64,000 nt of DNA from Argopecten irradians (taxonomy: Eukaryota; Mollusca; Bivalvia; Pectinida; Pectinidae), in the NCBI RefSeq assembly GCF_041381155.1, contig NC_091142.1:10535340-10599339 (forward strand), read 5' to 3'. Every line of letters begins with the position of its first letter. The stretch's first letter is position 1. The translations under genes were made by a program, and so were the position numbers. The notes beneath the pieces were generated by a model that worked only from the letters and a program-made list of their open reading frames with translations, had not been told where the DNA came from and made no database searches. Shown here piece by piece: positions 5,157 to 63,660 of this stretch.

Positions 5157-8100
5157 TCACCTGTCTATTGTGTCCAGTTGTTCCTGGTATTCTGTGAACA
5201 GTCTCTGTAGGCTCAGATTTTTACCAATTAAAGGTAGAATTTCCTGTAGTAGATCTCTCTTATCCATTCCCTGGTAAATAAATAAATCAATATACATTAA
5301 TGATCAATCAAATATCCAGCAATTTTCATATATTTTCACAGTATATGACTAATGACCTCGTGGGGGACATATTTCGCTGCTTTATCAATGGAGTATATTC
5401 ATGGTGTTTTAATTTCGCAGTACACCGATTCCTCTACATGCAATATTTAACACTTTTGAACAACAGTAGTAGATTTCAAAATATTCTGCTGGTGGTTTGA
5501 AAATATACACTATATAATACTAAAGGGCTCCCGAAAAATACAGAGATTCAGGGCCCTAATGATTCAGACAAAAATTACGACAGACGACATCACATATTAG
5601 CTCCGACATGATTTCCGAAGAATACAGAGATTCAGGGCCCTAATGATTCAGACAAAAATTACGACAGACGACATCACATATTAGCTCCAACATGATTTCC
5701 GAAGAATACAGAGATTCAGGGCCCTAATGATTCAGACAAAAATTACGACAGACGACATCACATATTAGCTCCGACATGATTTCCGAAGAATACAGAGATT
5801 CAGGGCCCTAATGATTCAGACAAAAATTACGACAGACGACATCACATATTAGCTCCGACATGATTTCCGAAGAATACAGAGATTCAGGGCCCTAATGATT
5901 CAGACAAAAATTACAACAGACGACATCACATATTAGCTCCGACATGATTTCCAAAGAATACAGAGATTCAGGGCCCTAATGATTCAGACAAAAGTTACGA
6001 CAGACGACGTCACATATTAGCTCCAACATGATACTCACCAACACATACGTGTCCCAGGATGATTTCCGTTTACTTTTATATATGGGGCCTAATAACTCAT
6101 CACACACTTCTCTCAGCTTCGTTTCTAAACCTACAAACAAGCATTGTATAATTGTAAGGTTTGTACTAATCCATTGCATTTAAATATATTATTCCGTATT
6201 TGCATATTACAGAGTTATGTGCCCTTGCATGAAGGATAGTGACTTATGTTTGTGATTGTGATGACACACTTAAAGAGAAACTGATGCGAATTTTGCTCAA
6301 AAACAATAACTGCAATATGCATAAACTGAATGAATAATATTACAGAAATAAATACATTAAAGATGCTCCACCGCTGACAGAGCATAAATGATATTCATCA
6401 TTTGAACAATAATTGGTGTTTAATCATGTATATGTAAGCTTAATTAACACAAAAATAACATAAAATAATATATTTTGCCTTTGGTGCATGCGAAAAACAT
6501 TACCTCATTCTATATAAGATATAGTGCCATGGAATTTTTTCAGGATGCAATTAATTCTTTTTCATATTTTTAACTTAATGTAAAATTAGAAGCTCAAACT
6601 TTTCAATGGTGGTAATGGTGTAAAGTAAGTAACTTTTGTAATTAGAGAAAAACACAAAATCGTCTGCTCCTGTTTTTGATACTATATTTTAGCGTGTTCT
6701 GAGCCAGAAATTTTACGCTAAAAGTATTATCTGTAGAACTTTAGTACAACTGTATAACAATTCTAATGAGTACACAAACTCAACACTATGCTAATGTTCA
6801 AAAGGAAGTTTTCATTAAAATTTGATTGTGCAAAATTAAGTACATTTAAAGAAACTCTCTTCAGGTATTCTAGTTTTCTTTTAATTTTGAACGGTTAAGT
6901 CAAGCAATGAATATAGTACCATAATTAGTTTAAAGGATGACTTTGAACCTACCTTCTTTGACAATGTAGCGGATGTAGGTGTGTAGCCAAAACTTGTACT
7001 CGGATCCCGACTGGAGGGACATACAGGCCATGAGTTGAGATTCTAGGTGACTTATGGTGGCCGTCTGCTGGAGATGGTGTCCGGAGTTCAGCACGCGTCC
7101 AGCCAGAGACCCAAGTCTGTTGTCATAACAAAAGAAATTTCTTTATTTTATGAATTTCTATATAAAACAAGAGGCCCATGGGCCTTAACGGTCACCTGAG
7201 TTAGAATATATAATGAAACAAATAATGAAACAAATAAAGACATATAAACACTATATGCTGGGCCTTGAAGTTGGTCAGTGATTTATAAATTTGACCTTTT
7301 TAGACTATGAAGAGTATTTGCTTCCATCAAACCTGTGAACTTAGAGGTATTTTTGAAATTTTAATCAATTTGACCCTGTTTGGTCCTGCCCCTCTGGTCC
7401 CCCATGGGGTCATCGAAGACGGATATGGATGTTAAAATGCTATATCTTCGGCTAATAATTCTAATCAAGTTTGACTAATTTCCTACAAAAATTGGGCAAA
7501 AAATGTTCACAAATATGTTTTTCCTATATAAACTAAAGTAAACTTGACCCCTCCCCAGGGGGTAATGTGAGACCCCAAGATCATAAAATTCACAGTTTTT
7601 ATAAAACACCTGAAGACCTTTCGATCTATAATTATTTGATTCTACTATATCCAGAATTTTAGAAGATTTTTGAAGTTTTAGCCTATTTGACCCTTTTTTA
7701 ACCCGTCGGCCAGGACCAATGTGGATATGATATTAAAATGCTATCTCAGGCTAATAATCATAACCAAGTTTGACTCATTTCCTATGAAAATTGAGCAAAA
7801 AATGCTCATTAATATGTTTTTCCTATATAAACTATAGTAAACTTGACCCCCTCCCCAAGGGGAAACAGGAGACCCCAGGGTCATATAATTTACAATTTTT
7901 ATAAACAAACTTTAAGACCTTTTCATATCTATAAAGTGTATTTGATTACACCATTTCCAGAATTTTAAAAGAATATTTTTGAAGTTTTAGCCTATTTGAC
8001 CTTTTTTGGCCCTGCCCCTCTGCCCCCAGGGGATCGGCCTGGACCAATATGGATATGATATTAAAATGCTATCTCAGGCTAATAATTCTAACCAAGTTTG

Positions 8101-11100
8101 ACTCGCTTCCAATGAAAATTGAGCAAAAAATGCTCATAAATGTGTTTTCCCTATATAAACTATAGTAAACTTGACCCCCTCCCCAAGGGGAAACAGGAGA
8201 CCCCAGGGTCATATAATTCACAATTTTTGTAAAGGACCTTAAGACCTTTCTATTTATGAAAAGTATTTGTTTCTACCATTTCCAGAATTTCAGAAGAAGA
8301 TTTTTGAAGTTTTAGCCTATTTGACCCTTTTTTAGCCCAGCCCCTCTGCCCCCAGGGGGTTTGCCAGACCCAATGTGGATATGATATTAAAATGCTATCT
8401 CAGGCTAATAATTCTAACTAAGTTTGACTCGTTTCCAATGAAAATTGAGCAAAAAATGCTCATAAATGTGTTTTCCCTATATAAACTATAGTAAACTTGA
8501 CCCCCTCCCCAGGGGGAAACGTGAGACCCCAGGGTCATATAATTCACAATTTTTGTAAAGGACCTTAAGACCTTTCTATTTATGAAAAGTATTTGATTCT
8601 ACCATTTCCAGAATTTCAGAAGAAGATTTTTGAAGTTTTAGCCTATTTGACCCCTTTTGACCCCGCCCCTAAGGCCCCTGGGGGTCAGTCATAGAAAATG
8701 TGTTAATAGGATTAAATGGCCATTTGACTCATTTCCTATTACAAATAACCAAATAATGCGCAAAAATGTGTTTTTTCAATATATGGTATAGTAAACTTAT
8801 CACAATTTTTGTAAAGGACCTTAAGACCTTTCTATCTACGAAGAGTATTTGATTCTACCACATCTGTGAGTAGAGAAGAAGATTTTTGAAATTTTACTCA
8901 ATTTTACCCCTTTTGGCCCCTCCCACAGCCCCCTGGGGGGTGGGGACCATATAATTCACAATTTTGATTGGCCTTATGCCTTAGAAGGTTTGTGCAAAAT
9001 TTCATTGAAATTGCTTCAGCAGTTTTGGAGAAGAAGTCGAAAATGTAAATTGTTTACGGACATACGACGGATGACGCACGACTCACGACGCACGACGGAC
9101 GACGACGGACAAAAGGTGATTAGAATAGGTCACTTGAGACTTCGTCTCAGGTGACCTAAAAATACACATTATATTGACTAGCAACGTTCTATTTGCTAGT
9201 CAATGTTTTCACCAAGAATTACTCGGATTTATATACTATGGGCTGCTGGTATAAATTCTATAAGGGAATGGTTGGACCAACAGGACCACTGAACAAGAGA
9301 TTCACAGAAATTGAGATAGATCAAATACTTTTGTTTACATTTAGCAAAACTAAAACATTTAAAAGTTTAAATTTAATATCCAGAAAATGTTAAACTATTA
9401 TCCAATTATAAGACTAACTATTTTATGTGTATATTTAATTAAACCTAACAAAAGGTCAATAGTACTGATATATGTGCTTCAGATCTTAAAGCATTCTCAA
9501 ATCCATACCTCATACTGATGGTCCCTGACAGGGGTCATAAATATTAGTTATGCAAAATTTGTTTACTTTCACAAAGAATATTGCTTACCAAATCGGTTTA
9601 AATCCATTCAATACTTAATGACAAGTAGCAATTTGAAGTAAATGGTGCTACATGATGAATAGACAAAGCTCACCTGTCCTTTAAGAGAGGAAAGTATACC
9701 TCCTGCACTTTAATTAAATTAAAGAATATTGCTCACCAAATCGGTTTAAATCCATTCAGTACTTAATGACAAGTAGCAATTTGAAGTAAATGTTGCTACA
9801 TGATGAATAGACAAAGCTCACCAAATTGGTTTAAATCCATTCAGTACTTAATGATAAGTAGCAATTTGAAGTTAATGTTGCTACATGATAAACAGACAAA
9901 GCTCACCTCACCTGTCCACCTTCTGCACTTTATTTGAATTTTAATGAGATTTATGTTCCTGTTCGACAAAATTTCTTTGTTCGGAGTACGAGTCTCTGAG
10001 CGAGCAATCTTACCTGTCCTGTAGTGGCTGCAGTGAGGCCAGTGGTCCATGAGTACGAGTCTCTGAGCGAGCAAACTTACCTGTCCTGTAGTGGCTGAAG
10101 TGAGGCCAGTGGTCCAGGAGTACGAGTCTCTAAGCGAGCAAACTTACCTGTCCTGTAGTGGCTGCATTGAGGCCAGTGGTCCAGGAGTCCTGAGTATGGA
10201 GGTGGCGGGAGTGTAACTATGGTGATCTGAACAGTGCTGCAGTGGGTCATCTTTATTGTATAGTAATGTCCTACAACACCAAATACATTTATATCAGTTA
10301 AAGGGTCAATACAACACCAAATACATTTAAATCCTGTTACCTGTTACCTCTTCATAGACACCATAGTTAGCTGATTCCAGCTAGGTGTCGCACGTTTTGT
10401 TCATTTACTAGGTGGTTGTTGTCTGGTTTGTGCCATATATCAGTAAAGGTTCGTACAGTATTACAAGGTACATTCATAGTCTTAATAAACTACCTTTTTA
10501 ACCTGAGAAGAAATTCATTATGACTGGTTCTTACCATTTTATGACAGGAACATAAAAATGAAAGCATTAGAACATTTTGAAAAGTATTTAGCAGAACTTA
10601 TTTATTTTACTAAGCAATTTGTGTTGATGATAATCAACTGAGCCTAGTCCCACTGTGTAGACGTTAAAACACTCGGAATGAGATCCTTTCTCTGATAGTG
10701 TCTAACTCCTATAAACAGCCAGGATAATTTTAGGACAGCCCCCATGTATGTGGTGTGTTGCATGTATGAAGCGTGTTTTGGGAGGCTGCAGTATATTTGT
10801 GTTTTGTCTTCTTGTAATAGAGGAACTAGTGTCAGATATGCTTAGAACAGTTTCAATAGACTGCTTTTGAAACAATTCTATATAAGGGAGGTGGAATACC
10901 ACTGTTAATTTGATACCAGTGAAGAAATGTTCGTTAGAAGAGCTTTACTTACCAGCATGCCATATCTGGTGAGAATGTATAAGACTTGTGTGTAGATAGT
11001 GTTACCATGGGAACACCGTCCTTGGTCATGGATGCCCTTGTAATATTATCCTCTCCTGTAAAACATACACAAACCTCATCATTCAACCCAGAATACACAC

Positions 11101-13243
11101 ATGTACTCACTTATTAGGTATACCACAATATATTACATAAAACACATTTTCTCTTCTAAATCTTGAGTTTTTGTTTTCAATTTCATTTATTTCTTCTTTA
11201 ACAAGACATATCTATAGGACAAGGAATCAGAAATTAGGACAACATAGACATGGATTATAGTAAATCCCCTTGCCATTTTATAGAGGAAAGCATAAAAAAA
11301 CATTTTACTATTCTTAAAGATGCTCCACCGCTGACAAATGGTATTTTTTCACTATCAAAAACAGCAGCAGATGATTTAGTATTTTTCTTCAGTTACAAAA
11401 GTTACTTACTTTACACCAATACCACCATTGAAAAGTTTGAAGTTCTAATCATACTTCAAGTTAAAAATATAAAAAATAATTATTTGCATCCTGAAAAAAT
11501 TCCGTGGCACTATATCCTATATGGAATGAAGTATTGATTGTGCATGCACCAAAGGCAAAAGAAATTATTTTATATTATTTTTTGTGTTAATTAAATACCA
11601 TTTATGCTCTGTCGGCGGTGGAGCATCTTTAAACAAAATGCTAAGTCTGTATCCATTAGTATAAGATGAGTATAACTTACCTGACATTATTGCAGAAAGG
11701 TTAACATCTCTTATCACAGCAGATTTAGATTGCATATTCCTGAAATGTAAGGTAAATATTTCTAATTGCTCAAAGGAAAAGTATTTCAAATCATTGGTAC
11801 AGAAAGAGCTGAACAAAAGTAATATATGAGAGATATGGCCAAGCTGAACATGCAATGACCTGGTCATCTTGTCTAAATCATTAAATTCATTATATTCATT
11901 AAAATCTTTCAATATTTTGAAATTCTTTCAATATTTTAAAATTTTTAGTTTCGTTTTTTATTTGTATGATAAATATATATACAGTACGTCGAAGTAAACT
12001 TCTGTTAACTGACTTACTGATCACATCATCTTGCCAACTGACATTTTATGGCTAAATACCAAAATTTACAGTATTTTGGCTAAATACCAAAATTTACACA
12101 TACCAAAGTTTACAAAATTAAACTTGTAGTTTAATCTGTTTTGCAGCGATTTATTTCATTGCCTGCAACATATGAGAAATTTAATGGCATTAGAAAATAT
12201 GTTGGTTTACAGTATTCGGTAAAATAATACTTTACCAGACATATACGCTGCCTTTTTGAGAGATTGCCATCACATAGTGGCCGTTTACAGAGAGTCGTGA
12301 TACTCGGGAGTTCAGGACAAGTTGTGGTACGAGGCGACGGCCACAAGCTGTGAACACATGAACGGATCCATCTTCACAACCGGCACAGATCACTTCCCTA
12401 AAAACAGTCAAATAGTATAATTCAAGACTTTGCTAGAAACAGTCAATAAGGACAATTTCAAACACAGCAGCACAAATTACTTTCATGGAAATGTCCAAAG
12501 AGTATGATTTAAAACCGAGAGTTCTGAGCAATTCACTATAGTATTTGTAGATCTCATTAAACTTGATCTAACTATTAACAAACTAAACAGACTCATCCTA
12601 AAGCAGCTGGGAGCTACTCCCTACCAATAAAACACAAGCTTACAAACTTATCTCTCCCAGTTGATCCAAATAAGCAAATATTTAGTTCAATGATTAAGTA
12701 AAAAAGTGATAATACTATAACTTGTCCAAACTGACTCTTGTCTTATCCAGATCCTGTGTATTCTGACAAAATTGTAAATCATTTTCCTTCTAAACCTATA
12801 ATAATTAGAACCTGTATTATCCAGAAACCTGGCCATACCAGCCATATTCCATATTTGCATATTACAGAGTTATCTGCCCTTGCAGGTAGGTATTGATTGT
12901 GACGTCATGTGTTTTTGAGCGTAACGTCATACTTTTCAGAGAAAATGACCTAAATTGCGCTCATAAAATAATGACATAACAATCGATACCTACCCGCAAG
13001 GGAGCTAACTCTAATATGCAAAGACGGAATAGGCTAGTCCGGTAACATCTGGTTTAAACATGTTACACTACATCATTTGTACCTGGAGCCTTCCACAGCC
13101 AGGACTCTGGCTGTATGGACCTGCTCCCACTCTCGTACACCGTCCCGCACCAGCTGGATGCGATGTACTTTGTGTGTTCCCAGAGGAATGTCATTTGTTA
13201 CCTCCAACATTGAAGACTTCTCATCAGTAGTTCGACCCTGGAT
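5157..13243 (-). CDS. HIRA: HIRA exons 20-27: C-terminal Hira domain
   Basis: Encodes about residues 675-998, the Hira domain that in the family mediates trimerisation and CABIN1 binding. Landmarks: REWEQVHTARVLAVEGS (exon 20), CGRRLVPQLVL and GHYVMAISQKGSVYVW (exon 21), GVPMVTLSTHKSYTFSPDM (exon 23), HLESQLMACMSLQSGSEYKF (exon 25), LREVCDELLGPIYKSK (exon 26) and LLQEILPLIGKNLSLQRLFT (exon 27). Intron 24, between 10148 and 7116, is about 3 kb and filled with a composite repeat. The donor of exon 24 lies in a three-copy tandem duplication. An ATTAAA at about 4869-4874 (minus strand) is a possible poly(A) signal. Confidence 0.93.
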
Positions 13244-16200
13244 CTGTAGAAGATCAAAATGACAATTTTACTTTGATATACACATCAATAATCTATAAAC
13301 TTAAGCATGGTTGATAAACATGTGAGAAAGGTTTATAGCATTCCTTCAAAATGGAAAATAATTGTCGAACTGCTTCAAAATGGGACTAATTGATGTACCA
13401 TGTGATACCTGATAAAGTTTGTACGGGACTTGTATTTTAGTGATGAAATGATGCTAAAAGATTATATCCTGTGCTAATGTCATTTGAGTGGTAATTTTAC
13501 AAAGAGTTACATTCCGTCACCACTTTAGATACTAGTATCGCACTAAAATGTTATGGGGTATCATGCAGTATAGGAATTAATCCCATTGAAATTTATTGTC
13601 TAATTGCTTAAAAATTATCAAATTTCTTCAAACTAGAAAAGGGCTTTTCTTGTTGTAATGACAAAATATTGTTTAAACTTGATGAGATGGAATCTAGTAA
13701 ATCGTAGCCAGGTAGCCAGTAAAGTAGAAGTAAATCATTAATATTTCCACAGATGCAAGAGTTAGGTCTCGTATTTCATACATTTTTGGTGAAGGACTTT
13801 TCTACAGATGGTGTTGGAAGCTTGAGATCAGAACTTGTTGCTACGTATCGTATTGTTTCCTTCTCTATGTGGGTTTGCTGAAAAAGAGAAAATATATTAC
13901 TGTTAATAAAAATTTTACTCATAGCGACTTTAATTTAGATGTTTAAACAGATTTAAAGTATCATTTCAACTTTTCATGACCATGACCAAAGACTTTTTTA
14001 TGGGGATTTACTTTCGCAAACTAGTTTAAAAGTAAATTTCAAATTGATATGTAGTTAAAACATTTTCCTGTGGTTTTTATTTTCATGAATTCTAATTGAC
14101 AGTGATATACTATAAACTCTAATTCACAGCAACTAAATTGAATGATTTCCGTTTCAAAATATTTCGCGGAGAATAAGTTTCGCAGATTTGGAATTGAATG
14201 AATATACCTTTGAATTCAATTGCTCAAAAGAATTATAAAAGATATTAATTTGCAGAAATAAACATTTGTCTATGTTTAATCCGAGAATCAATCTCTGACC
14301 TGCTTGGTTAACAGCAAATATCTTTACCCCTACACCGCTTGATCACCATTACACCTAAACTAAACCTAAAATATTTTGATCTTAAATTTGCTGTCAGAAT
14401 AACAAAATTTACAAACTGACATCATACACAATACTTACTGGTGTAGAAGGAACTGATGACATTTGAGCAGCCAGTTGTCTTTCCTTGTCAACCTTTCGAG
14501 GACGACCCCTTCGCTCCAGTCGTTCCCCATGAACACCATCATGTTTACGTTTGACCCCTTTCATCTTATCCTTCACCCTGTCCTTTTCAGGTCTATTTAG
14601 GAGAAAAGCAGAAAACATTCTGATTACAATACAATCTCTTTTGCTTTCCTATTTAAACACCTATCTCTTTTGCTTTCCTATTAAACACCTATCATTATAA
14701 ATCAGCTCTTTTGACTTTTATCATTTTGTGAATACACTGCTGAAAGTAGAAGCTTTAAACATGAGCCATATGCTTAGAACACATTTTTGTTTGTTGATAT
14801 GATATACGTGTATCTATAATTTAGTGAAGATTTTATCTCGAATACACTCTAAGAATTCTCAATTTTTTATGATCAATCTCTGTTACTTTCTAGACTTTCT
14901 CACCTCTCTGGGGTGCTGACAAGAGTCTTAGACTTGACCTTTTCATGTTTCTCTGTACTCTCCTTCACTGGGGTAAGGGCTGCCATGGGCTGGAGGATGA
15001 ACAAAATGATGTATTGAAACTAATGAAACAGGTGCAGAAACTTTATTGAAAATATTCTATCTTTAATTTAATTAGTCGTTTTCTGTCCTGGTAAACAGGT
15101 ATTACTTAATAGTTCAATAGATCTTAAATCTTTCAACTAATTCTGTAAGAAAACAAGATGCAGTAATTTTTTTTCTATATTTGGTTTATTTTTGCGAAAT
15201 CCCAGATCAAAGTAAATTTGCAAAGGTTTGTCCTCACAAATTAATGTTTACTTAAATGTTGTATCTAGATATGTCAACTCAATAAATCATTCACAAAAGT
15301 TTATCTCCCTGAACTTGATTTGAAACCAAAAGTACGAAATTTAGGAGCTGCGAAAGAAAGTTGGTTTGGAGTAAATTCATCAAGTCCCAATTAATACCTT
15401 CTAACAAGAGGTGATAACTGAATATTACACAACGATAGTCAAGAAAATTTTCTAGAAATATCCCAAGAACTTACTGTACATCCAGTGATATAACACAAAA
15501 GCTTTTCATCGCTCCTTACCTGTATAGATGCGTTGATTGGTTTTGGCGACTCGGCCCTGAGGCTAGATTTGGGCGTGGCTTCACTGCTGGACTTTGGAGT
15601 GGAGCCAGCGGGGGGTGAGGACATACTAGCTGTCTGGTTAGATTTAGGTGATGGAGAGGCAAGACCAGGGCGTGTTACTATATTCTGTTTCTCCACACGG
15701 ATCTTACTGGTATCCTTGGATGTGGTAAACTTGATACTACTATTGCTGACAGCACTATAGGGGGCCGGGATCACACTGGAATATTTACAAATAATGATAT
15801 AAGAACATGAACTAATCCAAACTCAACAAAGATTCAACAAGAATCAGCTACTACTATTTACAACACATTATTTTATGGGTTGAAAGATTCAAAGTATTTT
15901 TGTTGGTTGATGGACGGACATAGTAGACTTTGCATCCCTACATTATGTAAGGGTAGCATAGTTAACCTACCATTCTATACTAGAGAACCACTTGGCATTA
16001 AGCTTTTACTAATTACTAATACTCTAGCTGAATATGACTCGGGGAAAGTTTAAAATAAACCCTAATACCAATATATAATATGAGAACATTGACAATCAAG
16101 TTTTCTGTTTTTAACAAATCAGCAAAACAAAACCGCACTTCTTTCTGTACTACTGACCTGCCAGTAACATCTGGTTGTGGACAGAGAAATATCGGAGTGA

Positions 16201-19200
16201 TCCTCCGTCGACCATCAGGTGTCTTGGTTTCTATCTGTTTGTCTCTTGGCTGGAAGAAAATATTGGCCTTTCAGTAAGTGTCATTTCAAGTTATTTTTTA
16301 CAATTCAGTTATTTTTCACAAAATTGATCATTTTCATATTACATCATCACAAACTATTCAAAGAAAATATTGTCCTTTAAGTGAGTGACATGTCAAGTTA
16401 TTTTTTACAATTCAGTTATTTTTCACAAAATTAATCATTTTTATATTACATCATCACAAACTATTAAATATTGAAATATAGGTAAAACTTTCAATTTCAT
16501 TTCTATACTGGTGATATAATATATTTTTAATGTCTTGGTAAATGAAAACGTTTCATTCTGTGATATACAAGTTAGATTTAGCCATGTTTGCATACCTTGA
16601 AAGGTCCGTCCAATCCATTCATTAACGACGACCGACTACCAGAGGTATCCATTTTCTCTGGTGTCTCCTGTTTAGACTGAAGAAGTTGTTGTTTTTTCTC
16701 ATCCTCCTGCTTCTGTTTCTGCTGCTGTTGTAATTTCAGTAGAGCAGTTGATTCTATGATCTGATTGGCTGAATTACCCTGAGTTTTTGCTGTCAAGCAT
16801 CTTCCGTAGATTTTCTCAAGAAACATGTTCTATACAAAGAAATATTTCATTGATCTTTAGTATAAAATACCTTTTAAACTACACAGAAATCTGGTTATCC
16901 ATCCAGACACTAACAATCTGTACATAATTGCATCTATACAAAATGCTACAGTAAACTGGTGACACTAAATTCACAAATGACAAACTGTCCCAAAGTCTCC
17001 ATCCTCGGACTTCCAGGGGTTATCATCACCATCAATGTATCCACCCCTGAACTTTTTCATAGCAAAACTGAAGGCTCTGTGCGAGGCAAAAGTTTAGGCA
17101 GGTAGTTCAGTCCTTTGAGGTACAACAAAAGAATCAGATAATAGTACACTTTATGGTTTTGTAGCTTTCTGTAAATCTTCAAAAGAAGTCTTTATTCCGA
17201 ATTTGCATATTACAGAGTTATCTGCACTTGCGGGTGGGTATTGATTGTGACGTCATGTGTTTAAGAGCGTAACATCATATGTTTCGGAGAAAACAACGTG
17301 AATTGCACTCACAAAATAATGACATAACAATTGATACCTACCCGCAAGGGAGCTAACTCTGTAATAGGCAAAGACAGAATAGAACTTGATTGGTCAGTTT
17401 TTCCCCCTAAAATAACATCAGTTTTGCTATGACTTTGTCAAAGGGTTGATATAAAAACAGTGATAATAACCCCTGGAAAAACAAGGATCAGAGAATGTAA
17501 CCATTTGCACTCACCATTTCCTTTTGAGACAGGGCCACGCCAATCTCCTCTGGGCTGAAGTCAACATAGGCTATGCTTCCATCACAGGACCCAGCCACCA
17601 ACTCCATTCCATTCTGTCCCCTACAGACATGTGGGAAGTAAATATTCACTTAGTTTTAGTTTTTATAAAAAAAATCTACAAATTGTCTATTTATTATTGC
17701 TACACGGCTGAGTTGACATCACAAAAGTCACTACTACAGTTAATTCAAAATAGCATAATCACACTTGTTCACAATTTACATGCAAACATAAAAGCTGGGA
17801 AAAAATTATGTGAAATTAAACTTTTACTTGAGATTTTGTTTCTTAACTTTTGTAATGGTTTCCTATAGAAAATTAATAAATTCGTTAAAATTAAAGTATG
17901 TTGAAGGAACTGGGCCCTGAATCTACGGTATATACTCTAAAGGTGGAAGACAAAGAAAATCGTGAGTACTAATTATTTCTTTTCTTAAATTTTTGACAAA
18001 ACAATTTACCTAAAGATTAAATCACTTACCATGTTATGTCTAAAATAGAATTGGTAAACAGGTCATGAAGAACAACTAGGGGTCTTTTCAATGAAGTCAA
18101 CTGAAAGAAAAGAGTTTCGTTGTTTTCAAAATGTTTTATGTATATTTTTAGTAATGATATTGCTACCCAACTAGTAAATATTTCGTATGTGACGTTTAGA
18201 TGACTAGTACGATGTGTACACTGTCACTTTCATCAGACAAATAACCAGACAGTATGTGTACACAAAGGTATAAAAGTATATGAGTTGTCTTGTAATGAAA
18301 GTCGAAGATCGATGCTCAATGTTGATAGAGATGATAAGGTGTAAATTTTTGCTTTTATCTATTTAGTAATTTAATAGGTATATCATGCCAATTACCAAGT
18401 TTCAAGTCTGCTGCTCTTAATCTCACTGTTCTTTAGTTACACACAATAATGAAATAACATACTTACCCAAACTGATAAGGACTTGTCTCGACTTCCAATC
18501 GCACAACATGTGTACTGCTGAACCTGTCAATACAACACAACAATCTTACTACAATATTGTCGTTAATACAAATACTTTACGTTTAGGTTTTCAGTCCAAC
18601 AATATTCACTGACAAATCTTTCAAATCATGGAAATTTAATCAATAATATATCTATACATGTATCAATCATTCAGATTAAAAATGTTTACCTTTTCTGAAG
18701 ACTTCTTTGATTTCTTGGAGAATATGTTCGGGTTAAACCTCTAAAATCAGAAACAACATTAACTTTTAAAATAGACTTTTTTTTCTACATCTGTACCGTA
18801 TTCGACCCGATAAGCATCCAATCCATGTCCCTATATGAAATAAAAAAAACGACCAAAACTGTATAGGTTTGCAATTATTTTGTCATTTTACGCACCTTTT
18901 CATTTTTTTTGAAAGCCTTGGGCACTTATTGGGTCGAATATGGTAATTACTTCAGACATTGTCAGTAGTAGGAAGAAGAATAATTATCTATAAATATGAC
19001 AAAGTTGAAGGAGAAAATATTTACTGTATCTGATGATGTAAATGCCACCTTCCCATCTAAATGATATTGATCTTTTAAGACTCGAATCTTGTATGGTATA
19101 TCAGAAAGAAAAGAAAAGCTGAAAACCAACTTTCTTTCAAATTCACAAAATTTTTGTGAATTTTGTAAAAGAAGTAAATTCATATCTCCATGAAAAATCA

Positions 19201-22200
19201 CTCTCTAGACCCTTGTTTAATCTGAATCCCTGTGAAAACTGCTATATTTGTATTCTAGACCCTTGTTTAATCTGAATCCCTGTGAAAACTGCTATATTTG
19301 TATGACATTTTACTTATTGATTTAGAGTAAAACCTGCATAATCAGGAGACCTAGCTATACCAGCCAAATACGTTTGTCTGGTGACATCCAGTTTAGACAA
19401 GGTACACTGTATTCTGGGATGAAACCTTACCACAGAGGTTATAGCTTTGCGATGTCCCACGAAGTCTAGCGTACACTTCCAGCCGTCTCGTTCTATAATC
19501 TGTGCCACTGGTCCGGAGTTGTTCATGGCATGAGCCGACACAATGTAGTGACCATCTGGGGACCAGTTCAGTCTCAGGACGTGAGTTGTACCTCCACACT
19601 AGGGAAATCAAGGTTAGGATGTGACAATAACAATGTACTGCATAGTTGTAAAATTTTGCGAATTATATTTGTGGTCATTTCTACAACAGGCTATGATATG
19701 TGAAACCATAATTTTGATAAATTTCAAGAAGGATTAAATTTCGCGATTTTGGATGGATCCCCGAAATCACAAAATTATAACTTAATAATATAAGCAACTA
19801 TACAGTAGGAAAATACATGATCTAATGTGTGCCTGAGTGGACGACTAATACCCCCGGCCGACCAAATTTAGTAATAACTCCATTAATAGGGGACATTACA
19901 GAACCCTATATAGTTTACTCATCTCCCCTTTATGTCAGGGTTATGTGTACCAAATTTTATCAAAATCTGTCAAGTAGTTTAGGACGAGTTCGCCGAACAA
20001 AGTTGGTGTCCACAGACAGACAGACGGACAACCTAATTCCAGAATACCCCTCTTTACTTTGATGTGGGAGGTAATAAATGGCCCTTAAATAGTCTGTAAT
20101 GAGTCTGTATGATCCCCGCTTCATGATATAAGAAATAAGACTAATCAATTCAACTTGTTTACCTACATTGACAAACAACACAATACTGGCAACAGGTGAA
20201 TCAGTCATCCCCTGTGATTGGAGAGTATCCGCCACTTTACTGATCTAATTAAAATTAGACTATATTATTTCCGCTCCGCTGCGATGCTCTACGATATACT
20301 CCAATACAAGATCAAACAACTCCCTATTCGAGGTCACCTCAACATAACCCCTATGGTGAGCCAACCAGTGTGTTCCTTTTGGTATAGTTGAATCTCTCGG
20401 AAGCAGAAACAGCTACTAGTATGTCCTGAGATGTTCTGATTCTAGGCCATGGGTCATGCTGATGTGACCCTGAACAGGGAAATGTTAAGATCTTGTTTTA
20501 GAGCGTGTTGTTGAGCATCGTAGTGGAGTGGAATTACAAGTCTAATTTTTAATTAAACTACCACTTTACTAACCTCCTGGAATGGTTCTGTTATCACAGA
20601 CTCCTCCTGCCAGTCCTTAGTCCTCCAGATCCTCACACTCCGGTCATCAGACTGAAATAAAGGAGACACCATTCAATCTATCAAGCATTTTAATAATACA
20701 CTTAATTATCAAATCCCATGATTCCAAGTCTAGAATATAACAAGAAGTGTTCCTAAGGACAGTTTTGTTTTTCCACTGAATATAATATTAGTTAATAATT
20801 CATAATTTCACTATACCTTTAATTTAATAATAGCACATTGACAACTTTTTACTTATTTTTCTTAATGCAGAAATTTTTATTTTCATTTTTCTTTTATTAA
20901 TCTTAATATCTTACTTGCTATACTTCTTAATACCTTACTTTTGGTTTTATTAGTTTAATATCAATTTAACAGCCAGGGTCATTTAAGAATGTGCCAGGTT
21001 TGTTGGTGGAGGAAAACTGGAGTACATGGAGAAAGACCATCGACCAGCAGTCATTACCTGGCAACTGTCCTGCGTGGAATTTGAACTCGCAACCCAGAGG
21101 TGAAGCACTTATTAAGAAATCTTAACCACTCGGCCACAGCGCCCCCTGATCTTACTAAACACACTTCTTAATATCTTACTTACCATAACTAAGCATTTTT
21201 TTTAAAATTCAACCCGTTGTAACCTATTATAACCTACCTGAGAAGCGAGGTATTTGCCGACAGGATCCCACGTCACTCCCTTTACTAGACCTTTATGTCC
21301 TTTCAGCATCACTATTTGTTCTGAAATCACAAAAATATTCTTCAATAGAAAAAAAATATCTAATTTTAATAAATAAAATCTTTAATCTGGCAATAACAGA
21401 ACAATTGATTAATCTATTACTTTATCATTTCATGTATTAAATTTTCACAATTACAACAAATAAATTTTTCGCGATTACAACAATTTCTTCGAAAATCCTG
21501 GCTATACATATATTTTACAATGAGAATGACTTACAACCAGGTGACTTACCTGGAAACTTCTCTGCATTCCATACTATAACAGTATTATCTACACTGCAGG
21601 TGGCTAACCATGCGTCATTGCCCGACCACGACAAATCAAGGATGTCTACAAAATAAACAACCAATTGTTTCTATTAATACCTGTTACCTCTTCTGCGACC
21701 CCTTTGCCACTCGCTTTATTTTGACACAATTACTTCGCTGACTGCAGTTAAATAAGGCATGTCTTTAATGACCAGACCTGGATATGAGGAATATAAATAT
21801 TACCAGACCTTAGTGGAAGAGAACCTGTCAAGGACATACAAATTTATATCAACATTTCCTGGCTGTAGTATGTACTCATTCTCCCCTGCAAATTCATAAT
21901 GAACTGTTCCTGACTTTGAATTAGAAAAGTTCAAATGTGTCTCCAGGGGTCAATAGGTTTAAAGGACACTCAATAGTAAAGATGCCTACCCCCTGTGTGG
22001 CCCCTCAATGTACTGGCTGGTCGCCACTGCTCCACGTTCTGCTTACCAGAACCAAACACACTAGTACCTCCTGCATAACTGTAACCAGACAAAATAATAG
22101 TTTAGTGGTAATCAAGATATGAAAGTTCAAATTTTTAAATGCTTATTCTGATAGATTAGCCAGTTTGTAATGATATAACTTAGGTGTGTACTTACTTAGA

Positions 22201-25190
22201 TATCTGCCATACCATGACCAATTTATCGTCTCCAGCTGAAGCTAGGTACTTCCCACTGCTAGACCAGCGAACACAGTTTACACAAGCTACACAAAGGAAA
22301 CAACATATATAGATTATCACAAACTTTATAACATTCATCTCAATTATAAAAACTTTTATGCTAATCATAATTAGTACAAAAACCAACACGAGACAAAACC
22401 AAAAGATCTCAAACATGTACTTTCCATTTCCTACAAAGGTAATTAAACTATTGATACTAACTGATGTCATATAGCAATTATTGTGAAAAGAAAAGAGTAA
22501 ATTTACAGCATACCAATCGAATATTCATAACCAGAAATGTTTCCAATGCCTAATTACCCTGTGCTGCAAGAGAAGATGGGACAGCCACAGATAGTTTGTG
22601 CATATATAGGGTATGATGTATATGAATGTAAGAAAAAGATCATGAATCTATAATTAATAACTAGTATCATTCCAAACGAATAATCCTGAGATGGAAGGCT
22701 AATTGTGATATACAATGATGATTCGACTTGTGCCCTGTGAAGGGTCCACTATGCCCAGTATACTTTGTTACCTAGGTGATTATCCATCTGACACAGGAGC
22801 TTGGGAATATTTTCATCTTTCTCCTCCCTTTCATCTTTAATAGGTCCCATGTTCCAAATGGCCACCTTCCCTGAATCTTCTCCTGCAAACAAACACAACA
22901 AAGTTATCTACCATCATGACCATGTCACTACTGCAGGGGTACAGCAAAAATATCTTCAACAGGATTAAACATGATCAACAGAGCATAAAACTGACTTTGT
23001 ACAGAAGGTGTTTAATTCGCAGATATCTGCGCATGCTCTTGTGTTAGAAAGGAATATGACTATTTGATAAACATTATGTTTCAGCTCTTGAGATTGTTTT
23101 GGAAGTAGTCAATTTTCAACTTTATTTACTGCAATTAAAAAAAATCAAATGTCCTAGCTCACAAATTCCTTGAATAAACTGACTTCAGTATTTTTTTTAA
23201 CTATCATTTATATACGGTAATGAAATGAATTCATTGATTCAAGTGTGTTTAGAGAAATCGAAGCCTTATTTGCATCATAATCTTTCAAAATTCTGCGACA
23301 TAAAAAGGTAATTGTCTTATTAATTGAAATAAACAAATCATTCTCATCAATAATTATAAGTGGTCCGTACAGCTCTAACACCAAGCAGGCTAAAACTTTA
23401 CCTTGACCACCAGTAGCCAAACGAGATCCATCTGGGTGGATGTCAACAGAAAATATTGGTTTCCCTGAAATGGTAAAACAAAAGTTAGGTTACTATATTG
23501 TGATCAAAATGTATTGTTGTAGAAGCGTCAATTGTCAAAATTATTTCAAAAAATAAAAACAAAGGTGTTCAATTTCCACAAATATCAACCGTCTTATGAA
23601 ACTTTAGGATTTATTTGTTAAGAATCTTAGCAGTTAAGGTTAAAGTAGATGGTGGTGTTTGTGTATGCTTATTTTTCTGGGGTGTGGCGAAGGAGCGAGC
23701 ATAAAATAATCAGTATAACTATATAATTATATGGAAAATCTTGTCATTCTAGTTCCTGATATTAAATTTGCAGATTTTGTTTGTTTGTTTGATTATTTTA
23801 ACTTCCTATTAACAGCCAGTGTCATGTAAGGACGGCCTCCCATGTTTACAGTGTGTAGCGTGTGTGAAGTGTGAGGTGCGTGTTTTGGGAGACTGCAGTA
23901 TGTTCATGTTGTGTCTTCTTGTATAGTGGAACTGTTGCCCTTTTTATAGTGCTATATCACTGAAGCATGCCGCCGAAGACACCAAGCAACACACCCCACC
24001 CTGTCATATTATACTGACAACGGGCGAACCAGTCGTCCCACTCCATGTTTGCTGAGCGCTAAGCAGGAGCAGAAACTACCACTATTATAGACTTTGGTGT
24101 GTATCGGCCAGGGGACAGAACCCAGAGCCTTCCTCACAGGGGCGAACGCTCAACTCTAGGCCAAAAGTGAGGTGGTGCCAAGGGAGGCATTAGGAAAGAT
24201 AAAGTCAGTTAGGAAGAAGAGAAAAGATAAGATCCTTGATTTATTTGCCTTTTACGATCCTGCAATAGGGGCAGCAGGTACAATTCTAACGCCCACTCGA
24301 AAATATTTATGAACTATTGTTTACACTATACTGAATCAGTTATCATTTGCAATTATTTAAAGTAAAGCATGTCACAGACAGCTGTTTATCAGAAAAATTA
24401 AACTGTAACATGCTGTTTTTGGGGGATCCAAAGGTACCTGGCTCGTTTTTTAACGAGTCAGGTAATTTACATGTGGGGGAACACAGTTGTGTAGACGCAT
24501 GCTTCCGAGTTAGAAGTGAAAATTTGTCTTTATCTTTTTAAGAAACTGACCAAATACACGTAGGTAATAGTGTCCTGTAGAAAATTTATGGTGAGGTACA
24601 AAAAATAGCTGGAAAGAGGTTTATTATTTTACATTGATGGGTAGATAATCCAGATGAGTACAGTTGATCGCCAGATGGCTAAATGAAAGCGGACTCGGAG
24701 ATAGGGCTACAGATAAATTCTAAATTTTAATAAATAAAGGTTTACACTATTCCGCCAGATCGGAAAAAAGGTCGATATTGACCAGTGGGTCCTATAAGAA
24801 TGTTCATGCCAACCATTGTTGTGTTGACTTGTTTACACAAAGCAACTTATCCGAGATGACAATGGTGTCTGCAGATGCGACGAAAAAAAAACATGGGACG
24901 AAAAAGACCAACTACGGCCCGGTTCTGTTGTTTTGATAAACATAATAGAAGACAATTCAAAGTATGAAATATCAATAAAGTATATTTAATGTCTTAAAAT
25001 CAACATGCATACTCGAACGACGAGAAAAATAATTCAATTATTTCGGAAAAACGTGAATTTGACCAGTGCATGCGCAGCAACACTTGCACCTTCTGCACTT
25101 CATTAGGCCTGTCAACAAAAACAGTCAACAAATCAAAACCAATCATTGCATACCACCATGGTTGACCCAACTTGGCTTCAGGAGCCGCAT
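5157..25190 (-). CDS. HIRA: HIRA, histone H3.3 chaperone subunit (27 exons, complete)
   Basis: HIRA is the scaffold of the HIRA-UBN1-CABIN1 complex, which deposits histone H3.3 independently of replication in the nucleus. Exons 1-27 in transcript order: 25154-25190, 23402-23464, 22772-22882, 22196-22286, 21990-22078, 21550-21645, 21238-21320, 20574-20651, 19431-19598, 18690-18740, 18467-18523, 18030-18100, 17515-17620, 16596-16829, 16158-16249, 15520-15775, 14904-14989, 14439-14592, 13782-13877, 13083-13243, 12236-12397, 11681-11739, 10953-11055, 10148-10270, 6953-7116, 6039-6130, 5157-5270. They total 2997 nt, divisible by three, with every junction GT-AG and in phase, giving 998 aa against about 1017 in human. 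The start is MRLLKPSWVNH, matching the family's MKLLKPTWVNH; the end is ...EYQEQLDTIDR then TGA. Identity rests on long colinear similarity I recall for HIRA; exon edges could be off by a base or two. Confidence 0.96.
5531..6033. repeat. 84-bp tandem array, 6 copies, against HIRA exon 26 donor
   Basis: Six near-identical 84-bp units starting at about 5531, 5615, 5699, 5783, 5867 and 5951. Each contains 'cagagattcagggcccta', 'gacagacgacatcacat' and 'attagctccgacatgat'. The array stops about five bases inside the intron from the donor of HIRA exon 26 (exon edge 6039). Copies differ by only one to three bases, so the array is young. Confidence 0.95.
6190..6325. mobile_element. MITE family 1, copy 2 (diverged)
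   Basis: Left arm 'tattccgtatttgcatatta' is well preserved. The right arm is reduced to 'aactgcaatatgcata'. The middle has lost the TGACGTCA octamer. It lies in HIRA intron 25. Confidence 0.55.
6357..6695. mobile_element. MITE family 2, copy 1 (one end lost)
   Basis: Begins 'taaagatgctccaccgctga' and follows the family interior ('gagcataaatgatattcatc', a TTAATTAACACAAAAA stretch, 'gtgccatggaa', 'caatggtggtaatggtgtaa'), then stops after 'ctgctcctgtttttgatact' without the matching end. Family members lie at 11313, 28521, 28938 and 57121. It has no coding capacity. Confidence 0.75.
7168..9165. mobile_element. 2-kb composite repeat with internal tandem units
   Basis: Starts 'acaagaggcccatgggcctt' followed by 'ggtcacctgag' and ends '...ctcaggtgacctaaaa', so the ends form a short inverted repeat (GGTCACCTGAG / CTCAGGTGACC). 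The inside holds four to five degenerate units of about 310-330 bp, each with a 'ttgacccctccccaggggg' type block, a 'caggctaataattctaacca' type block and 'aattgagcaaaaaatgctca'. Near the right end is a simple 'acgacggacgacgacgg' run. There is no transposase or reverse transcriptase frame. A second member of the same superfamily lies at 44405-45378. It fills HIRA intron 24. Confidence 0.8.
9575..9907. repeat. Tandem repeat, about 100 bp x 3
   Basis: Three units, each with 'aaatcggtttaaatccattc', 'acttaatgacaagtagcaat' and 'gctacatgatgaatagacaa' and then 'gctcacc'. The first two are separated by an extra 50 bp. The array ends about 75 bp from the 67-bp duplication that carries the HIRA exon 24 donor. 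Confidence 0.8.
9984..10184. repeat. 67-bp triplication containing HIRA exon 24 splice donor
   Basis: Three head-to-tail 67-bp copies at 9984-10050, 10051-10117 and 10118-10184. Each holds the last 37 nt or so of HIRA exon 24, the donor (minus-strand ACAG|GTAAGT in the third copy) and about 25 nt of intron. Only the third copy is joined to the rest of exon 24; the other two are orphan exon ends with intact or near-intact donors (the first reads GTAAGA). Differences between copies are few. Confidence 0.9.
10720..10905. mobile_element. SINE-like fragment
   Basis: Contains 'acagcccccatgtatgtgg', 'gcgtgttttgggaggctgca' and 'tgtgttttgtcttcttgtaa', which match the same blocks in the longer element at 23775-24160. 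Truncated; inside HIRA intron 23. Confidence 0.55.
11313..11632. mobile_element. MITE family 2, copy 2 (both ends present)
   Basis: About 320 bp, from 'cttaaagatgctccaccgct' to 'cggcggtggagcatctttaa': imperfect terminal inverted repeats of some 20-25 bp. The interior includes 'caccattgaaaagtttgaa' and 'attccgtggcactatatcct'. It overlaps an open frame of 95 codons that is just the repeat. It lies in HIRA intron 22, about 50 bp from exon 22. Confidence 0.85.
12845..13031. mobile_element. MITE family 1, copy 3
   Basis: Full-length, about 187 bp: 'tatttgcatattacagagtt' at the left and 'ctctaatatgcaaagacgga' at the right, with inner arms 'gcaggtaggtattgattg' / 'caatcgatacctacccgc' and the TGACGTCA octamer at about 12900. 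It lies in HIRA intron 20. Confidence 0.85.
13425..13590. repeat. Dispersed repeat, copy 2 (partner near 3440)
   Basis: Matches the block at 3440-3620 through 'agatactagtatcgcac', 'ggggtatcatg' and 'ggaattaatcccatt'. It lies in HIRA intron 19. Confidence 0.5.
13782..16829 (-). CDS. HIRA: HIRA exons 14-19: linker, ASF1-binding B-domain, AT-hook-like motif
   Basis: Exon 14 (residues 368-445) is rich in Q, K and E. Exon 15 holds the B-domain core KTPDGRRRITPIFL at about residues 454-467; in human HIRA the equivalent DGRRRITP stretch binds ASF1A. Exons 16 and 17 are Ser/Pro/Thr-rich with several SPxP and TPxx sites, as expected for a disordered, phosphorylated linker. Exon 18 is strongly basic and contains RRGRPRKVDKERQ, the counterpart of the human KKKKGRPRK motif. 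Exon 19 contains DLKLPTPSVEKSFT, matching the conserved LKLPIPSPQRAFT region that opens the C-terminal domain. Confidence 0.93.
16254..16466. repeat. 106-bp duplication next to HIRA exon 15 acceptor
   Basis: Two tandem copies (about 16254-16359 and 16360-16466) sharing 'agaaaatattg', 'caagttattttttacaattc' and 'attacatcatcacaaactat'. The first copy begins five bases from exon 15 (edge 16249) and so includes part of the pyrimidine tract used for splicing. Confidence 0.85.
17192..17381. mobile_element. MITE family 1, copy 4
   Basis: About 190 bp from 'tattccgaatttgcatatta' to 'taggcaaagacagaata', with inner arms 'cttgcgggtgggtattgatt' / 'aattgatacctacccgcaag' and TGACGTCA. It lies in HIRA intron 13, some 130 bp from exon 13. 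Confidence 0.85.
17515..25190 (-). CDS. HIRA: HIRA exons 1-13: WD40 beta-propeller
   Basis: Encodes residues 1 to about 367. Recognisable blades include ATGGQGEDSGKVAIWN (exons 2-3), CVNCVRWSSSGKYLASAGDD (exon 4), DAW-LATCSVDNTVIVWN (exon 6), GLVKGVTWDPVGKYLASQSD (exons 7-8), VSAHAMNNSGPVAQIIERDG (exon 9), CCAIGSRDKSLSVW (exon 11) and GSCDGSIAYVDFS (exon 13). This follows the human protein colinearly, with no insertions in the propeller except a short K/S-rich loop in exon 10. In the family this domain provides the UBN1 contact. Intron 1 is the longest in this half (about 1.7 kb) and carries a SINE-like repeat. Confidence 0.95.
18795..18945. mobile_element. MITE family 3, copy 1
   Basis: Ends are 'accgtattcgacccgataag' and 'gcacttattgggtcgaatat', an imperfect inverted repeat of about 20 bp. 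The interior is AT-rich. Related copies are at 34523, 35075, 36667 and 56722. Intronic (HIRA intron 9). Confidence 0.7.
19202..19304. repeat. 53-bp tandem duplication
   Basis: Two almost identical copies of a 53-bp block ('tctagacccttgtttaatct' then 'gaaaactgctatatttgtat'). Intronic in HIRA, about 130 bp from exon 9. Confidence 0.85.
19820..20075. repeat. Dispersed repeat related to 60112-60358
   Basis: Shares 'gagtggacga', 'atttagtaataactcc', 'aataggggacatt', 'tttatgtcagggtt' and 'acagacggac' with the block at 60112-60358. The 77-codon open frame across it is part of the repeat. Confidence 0.7.
20250..20546. mobile_element. Fold-back element with about 35-bp inverted ends, copy 1
   Basis: Left end 'aaaattagac...ttccgctccgctgcgatgct' and right end 'gagcatcgtagtggagtgga...gtctaatttt' are inverted copies. 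The partner copy at 59817-60110 has ends 'ttcagctccactacaacgct' and 'gagtgtcgtactggagcgga'. Both copies sit beside the block repeated at 19820 and 60112, so the two blocks may belong to one larger element whose parts are rearranged here. Confidence 0.7.
20955..21152 (-). mobile_element. tRNA-derived SINE
   Basis: Read on the minus strand it opens with a tRNA-like head: 'gctgtggccgagtggttaag' (A-box region) then 'gggttgcgagttcaaattcc' (B-box region), followed by a body containing 'ccaacaaacctggcacattc' and the 'atgaccctggctgtt' block. A-box and B-box spacing is as expected for a type II (Leu/Ser-like) tRNA. Inserted in HIRA intron 7. Confidence 0.75.
23775..24165. mobile_element. SINE-like dispersed repeat in HIRA intron 1
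   Basis: Begins 'gtttgtttgattattttaac' and 'cctattaacagccagtgtca', followed by 'gtgttttgggagactgcagt', 'catgccgccgaagacaccaa' and 'gaacccagagccttcctcac'. Fragments of the same element occur at 10720 and 4465. It has no coding capacity. Confidence 0.65.
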
Positions 25191-27095: not shown

Positions 27096-28515
27096 ATTAT
27101 ATGACTTGACGGAGGGTTAATTGCGCTCCTTTATGTTGCTAACTGATATTTGTTTACTTTCATTGTCCCGTATTACTGTTCGTATTATATTTTGTAATCG
27201 TGTTCGTGTGTGTCTTGATAAAGTGGCAGATCGCCTCGATTTTTTTGATTTTTTTTTGTCCACACGGTTGGAATTACTTCTTTGTCCCATATATACATGT
27301 ATGTATATTTATATATTGTTGGTAGCTAAAATTTCCTGCCAGGTCCCTGTGTGTTCAACCTTTCGAATCGTATAATCGAAAACAGACCTATATATAATAT
27401 ATACCTACAACTGCTGTTTCTAATCACCTGTTTGACGTACTCGGTTCATAAATATCGCGCCAACTCACACGACAGGTGCTTGTCCGAACGTTAATTAAAT
27501 GCCCGGGGGTCAGTTTAATGGTCGATAAGATATACCGTCGCTAATTGCAGATGGATTAGTAACATTAAATTCCGTATATCACCGTGGGGTCAACAATGGT
27601 ATTTGTGTATTGATATGATGAAGATAACAAAGTTTTAATTTATTTCGTCCAGTCAAATTTCCGCCATATGGTAAATGACCACCACACTGACCATATATTA
27701 GTGTACACCGGTTGATATACGGAGAGGAGTATATACGTTAATTGTTTTTGTTTATTGTCCCGTCGTCTGTCCTGACACAGAAAGGTGAACTGTTGTGACC
27801 AGTACATATATAGGAGTATGCTACCGAGATGATGGCAGGGCCTTATAACATGTCATGGGTACGTATAATTGTTTGTTTTGTTTATTGGCGTTTTATTAAG
27901 CTTTGATGAAAATAAACCAGCCATTCAAACTCAATTCACAGAGATCTGATAATTGGTTACAGTTTAAATTATTATCCTACCCACCGGCAGATTGCTACAG
28001 ATCATTTTAGACGTTTTAGGGGTCTAGATAAAAGTCGGTAAAATTCGTATTCTACATAGTACTATTCATACAATCGTATTTAGTATTTCAAATTGAAACA
28101 ACCTTCTGAATTAACTATGGGATTTAGATGGAAGACGAATTATAAGATATACATGTATGTAAATATCAAGTTCCATACATTGGCGAGAAACTTTAATTAA
28201 ACACACAATGGCATTCTATACACATTATCATAAGAAATTATGTATAGTTGATTTTCTACTTTAATAATGCGTTTTTCTTTCAGATATTAGGGTAAAATAT
28301 TTCACATTTGCGACGTGAATGGCTCGGTTAACAGCCAATATAGAAGTTTCTGGATATCACAAGACGCGAACGTGTCCTTTTTAAGTCTAACACAGTAAAG
28401 TGTATAACAACGTGTATAAAATCCCAGTATACGTTTAACCAAATTGTCTCGTTGTGTATTGGAGAAATCTTTTACTTTCTTTGCTCAGTTTGACAACACG
28501 AGATTAACAATATCA
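27096..28515. other. Intergenic, no gene recognised
   Basis: AT-rich DNA between HIRA and the GPCR. It has no open frame above 84 codons and no recognisable exon. A short GT/AT-rich stretch near 27290-27360 resembles 1230-1310. Confidence 0.4.
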
Positions 28516-29300: not shown

Positions 29301-29740
29301 AGACCTTATATATAATTAGATATCTTGGTTTGAAAGAGTCCATAGTGCGTTTTCATTAGTCCAATATCCTTTAGCTATTATAATGTTTATTGTTCAAAAA
29401 TCTCCAATCTTGTTTACCAATATTGGGGGCTAACCGTGGTTATATTTTTTTTCTTAATATACTCCAACTTGCACTCTCCTTCTAAATTTGACACGTCCGG
29501 CAACTCAATGATTTTAAACTAAATAATCCAAACTTCACATGGACTAGCATATTTATCCAGTATAACATTTTTTTCGGATTATACAGGTTTTGATTAGCAT
29601 CAATTAAGAAGGAAAATGCCATACAATTATGCCGGAGTACACGGCGATCTAAGTTAGACAAGAATCGGTTTTGACAGGTTATATTGTACATGTACATGTG
29701 TTTCATTAAGGACATTATAAGTATGATGCATATTTTATTG

Positions 29741-29878
29741 TTCTAGGAATGTACAGCATGGTAAACTTGTATGTGACAGAGCAGTGCAGTCACGTTAACA
29801 TTATATTTGATCTTTTTATGGTTCCAGGAATGTACAACATTGTAAACTCTGAGACAGAGCAGTGCAGTCACGTTAACT
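29741..29878 (+). repeat. Duplicated acceptor and 5' UTR segment before the GPCR
   Basis: Two copies of a roughly 50-bp block, each starting with an acceptor-like tract: 'ttgttctag|gaatgtacag' at about 29739-29756 and 'ggttccag|gaatgtacaac' at about 29820-29838. Both continue to 'gacagagcagtgcagtcacg' and 'ttaac'. The second copy runs to within about 25 bases of the GPCR start codon, so either acceptor could bring a 5' UTR exon to it. Splicing here is inferred, not seen. Confidence 0.6.
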
Positions 29879-39948: not shown

Positions 39949-63285
<23,337 letters not shown>

Positions 63286-63307
63286 CTGTCAACAACAAAC
63301 AACTGGC

Positions 63308-63660
63308 ATGAAACAACAAAAATCACGCATGAAACAACAAAAGACAGGCATAAAAATAACAAACGACAGGTATGAAACAACTAACGGCAGATATGAAACA
63401 ACAAACTTCATGCATGAAACACCAAACGTCAGGTATGAAACAACAAACATCAGGCATGAAACGACCAACGTCAGGTATGAAAAAAATGACAGGCATGAAA
63501 CAACAAACCTCAGGCATGAAACATGAAACCTCAGGCATGAAACAACAAACGTCAGACATGGAACAACAAATGTCAGACATGAAACAACAAACTGGACATG
63601 AAATAAAAAAAAATTTGGGATGAAACAACAAACATCAGGCAAGAAACAATGACAAAAATC
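63308..63660. repeat. 21-bp repeat at an ABCC acceptor, about 16 copies
   Basis: Units of the type 'atgaaacaacaaacgtcagg' plus c, more diverged than the arrays at 51953 and 61535. The array begins about 22 bp upstream (in transcript sense) of the acceptor of exon 63168-63285. On the minus strand each unit is a T-rich stretch (GTTTGTTGTTTCATG) like the pyrimidine tract of that acceptor. It fades out by about 63745. Confidence 0.85.

Follow-up and report, generated by a model that had tools for sequence, protein, structure and literature searches.

The DNA considered here is a stretch of 64,000 nucleotides from the scallop Argopecten irradians (contig NC_091142.1, positions 10,535,340 to 10,599,339), referred to below as the window. 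It contains the HIRA gene and an ABCC8/9-like transporter gene, both on the minus strand, and between them, on the plus strand, an open reading frame (ORF) for a rhodopsin-type G-protein-coupled receptor (GPCR). The introns of both genes carry local tandem repeats. The subject of this analysis is the repeats that lie on or next to splice junctions, which at five exon edges include exon sequence.

Genes and repeat loci in the window

The two genes were modelled as follows.

5154..25190, minus strand: HIRA gene, 27 coding exons, from spliced alignment; the corrected model equals database protein P0001 except for M870L
39949..63285, minus strand: 3' half of the ABCC8/9-like (SUR-type) transporter gene, 16 exons in the window, assigned by identity to orthologues

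The HIRA exons were located with a custom spliced-alignment script, using the human HIRA protein as query. Manual correction of two acceptors (exons 15 and 18) gave a 996-residue model, which was then compared with P0001 (998 residues) and matched it at 100% as printed; the exon 11 acceptor was corrected afterwards, being placed 6 bp further upstream in accordance with P0001. The final model and P0001 are identical at 997 of 998 residues, so that all 26 HIRA introns are supported at the protein level. The source contig of P0001 is taken to be a spliced transcript, because at 3320 bp it is much shorter than the 20-kb HIRA locus. P0001 crosses the donors of exons 24 and 26 and the acceptor of exon 15 without extra sequence. 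The single difference, M870L (10148-10270), falls inside the repeated end of exon 24, and both intronic copies of that end encode the residue found in P0001. A search of the PDB with a single HIRA exon gave no useful match.

The start of the transporter gene is located past position 64000. Its three best matches are in Pecten maximus (85% identity), Mizuhopecten yessoensis (80%) and Ylistrum balloti (78%), and no transcript from the same species is present among the best 120 of 260 matches. The junctions of exons 3-4, 8-9, 9-10 and 15-16 align without gaps to the scallop orthologues. Such continuity is lacking at two array-bearing acceptors: the first exon in the window is preceded by one outside it, and exon 12 by a broken one. 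Several indels disrupt this exon 11 (51160-51312, the start of NBD2), while its neighbours are intact; the cause may be a pseudogene allele, the absence of a functional copy or an assembly that has not been polished. A 31-bp exon guessed at 50887-50857 proved to be wrong, the true exon 11 being the broken one at about 51312.

Repeats were catalogued by several methods. Tandem Repeats Finder (TRF) gave 17 loci of period at least 15 within the two gene intervals, shorter-period rows being dropped from the counts; with its score lowered from 50 to 40, two further interior loci appeared, at 175 and 288 bp from an edge. A lag scan took the place of a blastn self-comparison, which had missed an exact 50-bp duplication at 19204. 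With a single threshold (score at least 20, the highest score in four Markov controls being 14) and a low-complexity filter on 948 raw segments, it found 19 local-duplication loci in the two genes. Five of these span an exon edge, six lie 1, 4, 5, 5, 5 and 6 bp from one, and the remaining eight lie at 41, 127, 137, 180, 232, 239, 559 and 686 bp. An alignment scan of 82 edges, including two at the broken ABCC exon 11 with uncertain borders, agrees with the lag scan, finding a local duplicate at 12 edges at p <= 0.01. Its junction-crossing scores are 39-85 at the five spanning edges, and there are weaker junction-touching alignments (scores 26-31) at the acceptor and donor of ABCC exon 12 and the acceptor of HIRA exon 21.

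The loci at exon edges are listed below, those that span the edge being given first.

9983..10188, minus strand: HIRA exon 24 donor array, 67 bp x 3.1, spanning GGACAG|GTAAGT (TRF)
51953..55887, minus strand: ABCC exon 9 donor array, 35-bp unit (TRF)
56372..56637, minus strand: ABCC exon 8 donor, about three diverged copies at lags of 97 and 100 (lag scan only)
60539..60631, minus strand: ABCC exon 4 acceptor, 50-bp duplication, TTTCAG|ACATTTGATAA (alignment and lag scan)
61528..62637, minus strand: ABCC exon 2 donor array, 21-bp unit (TRF)
5531..6032, minus strand: HIRA exon 26 donor array, 84 bp x 6, at TTG|GTGAGT (TRF)
10272..10333, minus strand: HIRA exon 24 acceptor, 24-bp duplicate (lag 38) that stops 1 bp short of the edge (lag scan)
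16254..16465, minus strand: HIRA exon 15 acceptor array, 107 bp x 2, ending 4 bp from the edge (TRF)
40095..40185, minus strand: acceptor array of the last ABCC exon, 31 bp x 2.9, ending 5 bp off (TRF)
45665..45983, minus strand: ABCC exon 12 acceptor, irregular repeats that stop 5 bp short (lag scan only)
63291..63649, minus strand: acceptor of the first ABCC exon in the window, 21-bp-based array, ending 5 bp off (TRF)
29733..29877, plus strand: acceptor-like block ahead of the GPCR, two copies at a spacing of 78-81, TTCYAG|GAATGTACA, at a putative exon edge

A preliminary description of the window had reported nine of the arrays in the two genes, all of which were recovered within about 20 bp of the positions given there, seven by TRF and two by the lag scan alone. 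Its numbering of the HIRA exons (26, 24 and 15) is that of the 27-exon model, and the duplicated acceptor-like block that it placed ahead of the GPCR is present at 29733-29877. It did not contain the ABCC exon 4 acceptor duplication, the HIRA exon 24 acceptor duplicate (10272-10333) or the eight loci that lie 41-686 bp from edges.

Other repeats are also present. The largest is an intronic array of about 142 copies of a 27-bp unit at 46346-50421 (TRF plus-strand consensus AATGTGTGCAATGTATTGTAGTCTGTG), 686 bp away from the closest exon edge and C-rich on the coding strand, with a skew of -0.54. Arrays of 158 bp (44501-45291) and 85 bp (9731-9907) have a related element in common (84% over 49 bp), which suggests a dispersed repeat that has become tandem. 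Upstream of the GPCR ORF, a sequence of about 415 bp is present in two tandem copies (28513-29298).

Splice junctions copied together with exon sequence

Tandem copies contain exon sequence at the donors of HIRA exon 24 and ABCC exons 2, 8 and 9, and at the acceptor of ABCC exon 4. The copied exon bases number 41, 13, 42 and 24, respectively, in the four donor arrays, for which the presence of exon sequence had already been noted, and 25 in the acceptor duplication. At HIRA exon 24 it is the proximal donor that is consistent with P0001, and at ABCC exon 8 the repeats span GACTG|GTATGTG. The array at HIRA exon 26 begins at intron base +7, with the donor outside the unit and no exon bases, and the array at 63291..63649 is T-rich on the coding strand.

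The 35-bp unit at the ABCC exon 9 donor (CTT|GTAAGT) consists of approximately 21 exon bases and the start of the intron, and CTTGTAAGT is found 108 times in the array. The copied exon end encodes SITYALL, which is identical in three scallops and is SITYAL in Pinctada; a 14-residue segment of the protein at this exon is unchanged across the three scallops compared. Because the exon part of the unit encodes a segment conserved in scallops, and nearly so in Pinctada, copying went from the exon into the intron. In the 21-bp array, 53 units were counted, of which 37 have ACAG|GTA, 15 have ACAGATA, with the GT lost, and one has ACAAGTA. Splicing from the second donor would be out of frame with units of 67, 35 and 97 bp and in frame with the 21-bp unit. 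More distant donors can restore the reading frame.

On the basis of these observations we propose that the arrays are mirage-type minisatellites, that is, local tandem duplications tolerated at splice junctions, and put the probability of this at roughly two in three. Mirages are known from lancelets, where they are reported at both types of boundary, with splicing and mRNA described as undisturbed (PMC3087553, PMC3902484). Short local tandem duplications would arise often in the introns of this scallop, presumably by slippage or template switching, and some would straddle splice junctions. The original exon would remain beside the coding sequence together with its own splice site, and that copy would be the one used. 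The intron-ward copies would be spliced out, leaving their number free to grow, and one intron has come to hold about a hundred spare donors. Selection would need the exon-proximal copy only, and the other copies would be neutral.

The arrays are present, exon bases are copied in them, and the database HIRA protein fits the proximal sites. At the ABCC edges, use of the proximal site is supported by the orthologues, whose alignments are gap-free at the acceptor of exon 4 and at the donors of exons 8 and 9. We file the five cases as mirages on two defining features: the unit holds exon sequence together with the splice junction at all five edges, and the authentic exon copy is spliced normally, as indicated by P0001 for HIRA exon 24 and by orthologues for the four ABCC edges. 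They look like local tandem duplications rather than insertions, because the units of 10 of the 11 edge loci, when searched within the window, each matched their own locus alone.

Placement near exon edges and other explanations

It had been suggested that chance placement next to exon edges is unlikely. For comparison, each array was collapsed to one unit and the units were put uniformly at random; after collapsing, the median intron is 524.5 bp. The introns are long because the arrays themselves lengthened them, so that chance alone would place 3.6-4.0 loci across an edge, and the 5 of 19 seen in the lag scan are at chance level. The suggestion holds for lag-scan loci that span an edge or lie within 25 bp of it (11 of 19, roughly twice the 4.9-5.9 expected, p 0.002-0.007). 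It does not hold for edge-spanning loci by themselves, nor for the TRF loci within 25 bp (7 of 17, p 0.064-0.24; the same seven lie within 6 bp, p 0.014-0.052). Among TRF loci of score at least 150 the count at 25 bp is 7 of 12 (p 0.016-0.053), and among those of at least 2.8 copies it is 6 of 9 (p 0.008-0.031).

The excess within 25 bp would be accounted for by a duplication process that favours splice junctions, such as pyrimidine-tract slippage or transcription-linked breaks. Such a process would also fit the position of the six abutting arrays, five of which sit upstream of an acceptor and stop 1-5 bp before it, and a per-intron permutation, which at score 31 gives 8 of 78, against 3.87 expected (p 0.018). 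Introns are moreover richer in loci than the rest of the window (19 in about 26.3 kb of collapsed introns, against 4 in the other 19.9 kb, as a raw comparison), which leaves room for a transcription-linked contribution. However, at a score of at least 31 the rate of local duplication is similar in interior windows (359 of 4426, 8.1%) and edge windows (9 of 82, 11.0%; p 0.22), in a control that keeps two units per array and in which the 21-bp edge array is hidden and the 35-bp one weakened. The permutation has no signal at scores 38-60 (p 0.36-0.55), a threshold-free combined distance test gives p 0.11-0.29, and at a 6-bp cut-off the signal is mainly from ABCC (7 of 10, p 0.0002-0.0006), HIRA alone giving 4 of 9 (p 0.13-0.15). 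We regard a junction-preferring process as unlikely. The earlier proposal that the exon-intron boundary itself was copied is correct at five edges; the process aimed at splice sites that went with it is not demonstrated by these data. R-loops, which favour a G-rich coding strand, had been offered as one such process, and the evidence on them is divided: among 12 measured arrays the coding-strand skew is mildly positive (0.05-0.27) in eight and negative in the two longest (-0.54 and -0.33).

The edge excess is thus modest, and is concentrated in arrays that abut exon edges without crossing them. It is these arrays that weigh against local duplication tolerated at junctions as a full account. 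Loci that span an edge or lie within 6 bp of it number 11 of 19, against 3.9-4.5 expected (p 0.0002-0.0005, for a cut-off picked post hoc, after the distances had been seen), which is not what uniform placement looks like, and the excess comes from the six arrays that end 1-6 bp short of the edge. They do not appear to be decayed spanning arrays, as none of the six reaches a p below 0.17 for residual similarity. Avoidance of AG was likewise rejected as the cause: the AG count is at or under expectation in four of the five acceptor arrays, the exception being ABCC exon 12, with 23 against 8.9 expected. Local duplication by itself does not account for the stop of these six arrays just before the exon edge.

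The donor arrays might instead be functional, as decoys for the U1 small nuclear ribonucleoprotein (U1 snRNP) or as a device that alters exon length while preserving frame. The occurrence of CTTGTAAGT 108 times within a single intron would suit the first of these roles. The second would suit the 21-bp unit, which keeps the frame and whose peptide is matched by the linkers of the Ylistrum and Pecten proteins. Set against this, the GT is lost in 15 of the 53 units of the 21-bp array, and reading on in frame runs into a stop codon after 67 residues. A function of this kind seems improbable.

Less probable again is that introns are being born here through tandem duplication of AG|GT (the Rogers model). 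The 21-bp and 67-bp units do have AG|GT at the copied junction, and the acceptor that closes the intron of the 21-bp array is like an in-register unit (AACAG|GGAAC, compared with AACAG|GTAAC, p 0.05). ABCC intron 2 is thereby a candidate for an intron whose GT and AG come from two copies of one unit. The resemblance of the ABCC exon 3 acceptor (61324-61374) to the unit is equalled by the scores of 77 of 5991 windows, and in the other edge-spanning cases no match was found between the partner splice site and the array. AG|GT occurs at only two of the five copied junctions, compared with 24 of all 41 donors, so that it is ruled out as a general requirement; the AG|GT put forward in the preliminary description is not a general feature of the copied junctions.

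Errors of assembly are very improbable: irregular indels in the 27-bp (84% matches) and 35-bp (89-91%) arrays could reflect unpolished long reads, and ABCC exon 11 is broken, but the units vary in sequence, period and divergence from locus to locus, and among the arrays are several short, clean ones (67 bp x 3, 107 bp x 2 and 50 bp x 2). The least probable source is insertion of a mobile or introner-like element, for which the element common to the interior 158-bp and 85-bp arrays might speak, but which is rejected because 10 of the 11 edge-locus units are not dispersed within the window and local exon sequence is part of the repeats at five edges.

Exon boundaries across scallops and in other organisms

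The 21-bp donor array may represent a sliding exon boundary that has lengthened the transporter linker in Ylistrum, to a lesser extent in Pecten, and not in Mizuhopecten, a suggestion that we make tentatively and consider somewhat less than evenly probable. ABCC exon 2 encodes the linker between the halves of SUR-type transporters. Most of the 21-bp units have a frame-preserving AG|GT, so that the exon end could shift in steps of seven residues. When linkers were compared with the array peptide (NYDMETG)n, using predicted proteins, that of Pecten carrying a low-quality label from its source, Ylistrum scored 94 (shuffled mean 25, standard deviation (SD) 7.5) and Pecten 51 (mean 19.8, SD 5.6). 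The match of exon 2 in the window is weak (34; mean 18.7, SD 5.1, p 0.011), and the Mizuhopecten linker has no match to this peptide (p 0.86). A 7-residue periodicity is found in Ylistrum (p 0.018) and is unclear in Pecten (p 0.10) and in the window (p 0.72). In the DNA, a 21-base stretch ending at base 5 of ABCC intron 2 agrees with the unit at 18 of 21 positions; for the two 21-base blocks upstream of it the agreement is 10 (p 0.04) and 11 (p 0.014) of 21. These matches suggest that 21-bp units have entered the coding exon.

The phenomenon is a little-studied one, known from lancelets and now seen in a mollusc. As described for the lancelet Adh3, globin BflGb6 and BflGb9, TnC and PGBD5 genes, mirage repeats span donor or acceptor boundaries, and many units carry splice signals while the mRNA is reported to be normal (PMC3087553, PMC3902484); the scallop arrays share the first two of these features. 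They differ in being found in a mollusc, with five in two genes, in reaching 108 donor copies, compared with 3 or 6 units by haplotype reported for BflGb6, and in the suggested change of exon length across species. Splice signals within a tandem duplication are also described for the potato RdRp gene and for 24-bp AGGT arrays in fission yeast (PMC4974935); unlike these, the introns of the scallop look pre-existing. Variable internal tandem repeats in duplicated human genes likewise have units of minisatellite size at exon-intron boundaries, and are sometimes tied to new introns (PMC2812944), but are described as lying in segmental duplications, whereas those of the scallop are in two genes. 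Closer in taxonomy is the 27-bp minisatellite in an intron of an abalone TSSK1-like gene, which varies among individuals and for which the account given describes no splice junction in the unit (PMC6905558). Among the matches listed from open-licence PMC papers (titles and starts of abstracts), there was no report of boundary-spanning repeats in a mollusc.

The reports cited above describe mirages from lancelets alone, and propose that new introns and exons can arise from them. The presence of five mirages in two scallop genes suggests that, in animals whose introns are unstable, duplication of exon boundaries may be common and widely distributed. An array with more than 100 near-identical donors poses the question of how the spliceosome chooses the first. 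Where an array is neutral to the reading frame, movement of the exon boundary could be read across living species of scallop, which would make this family a test bed for boundary duplication.

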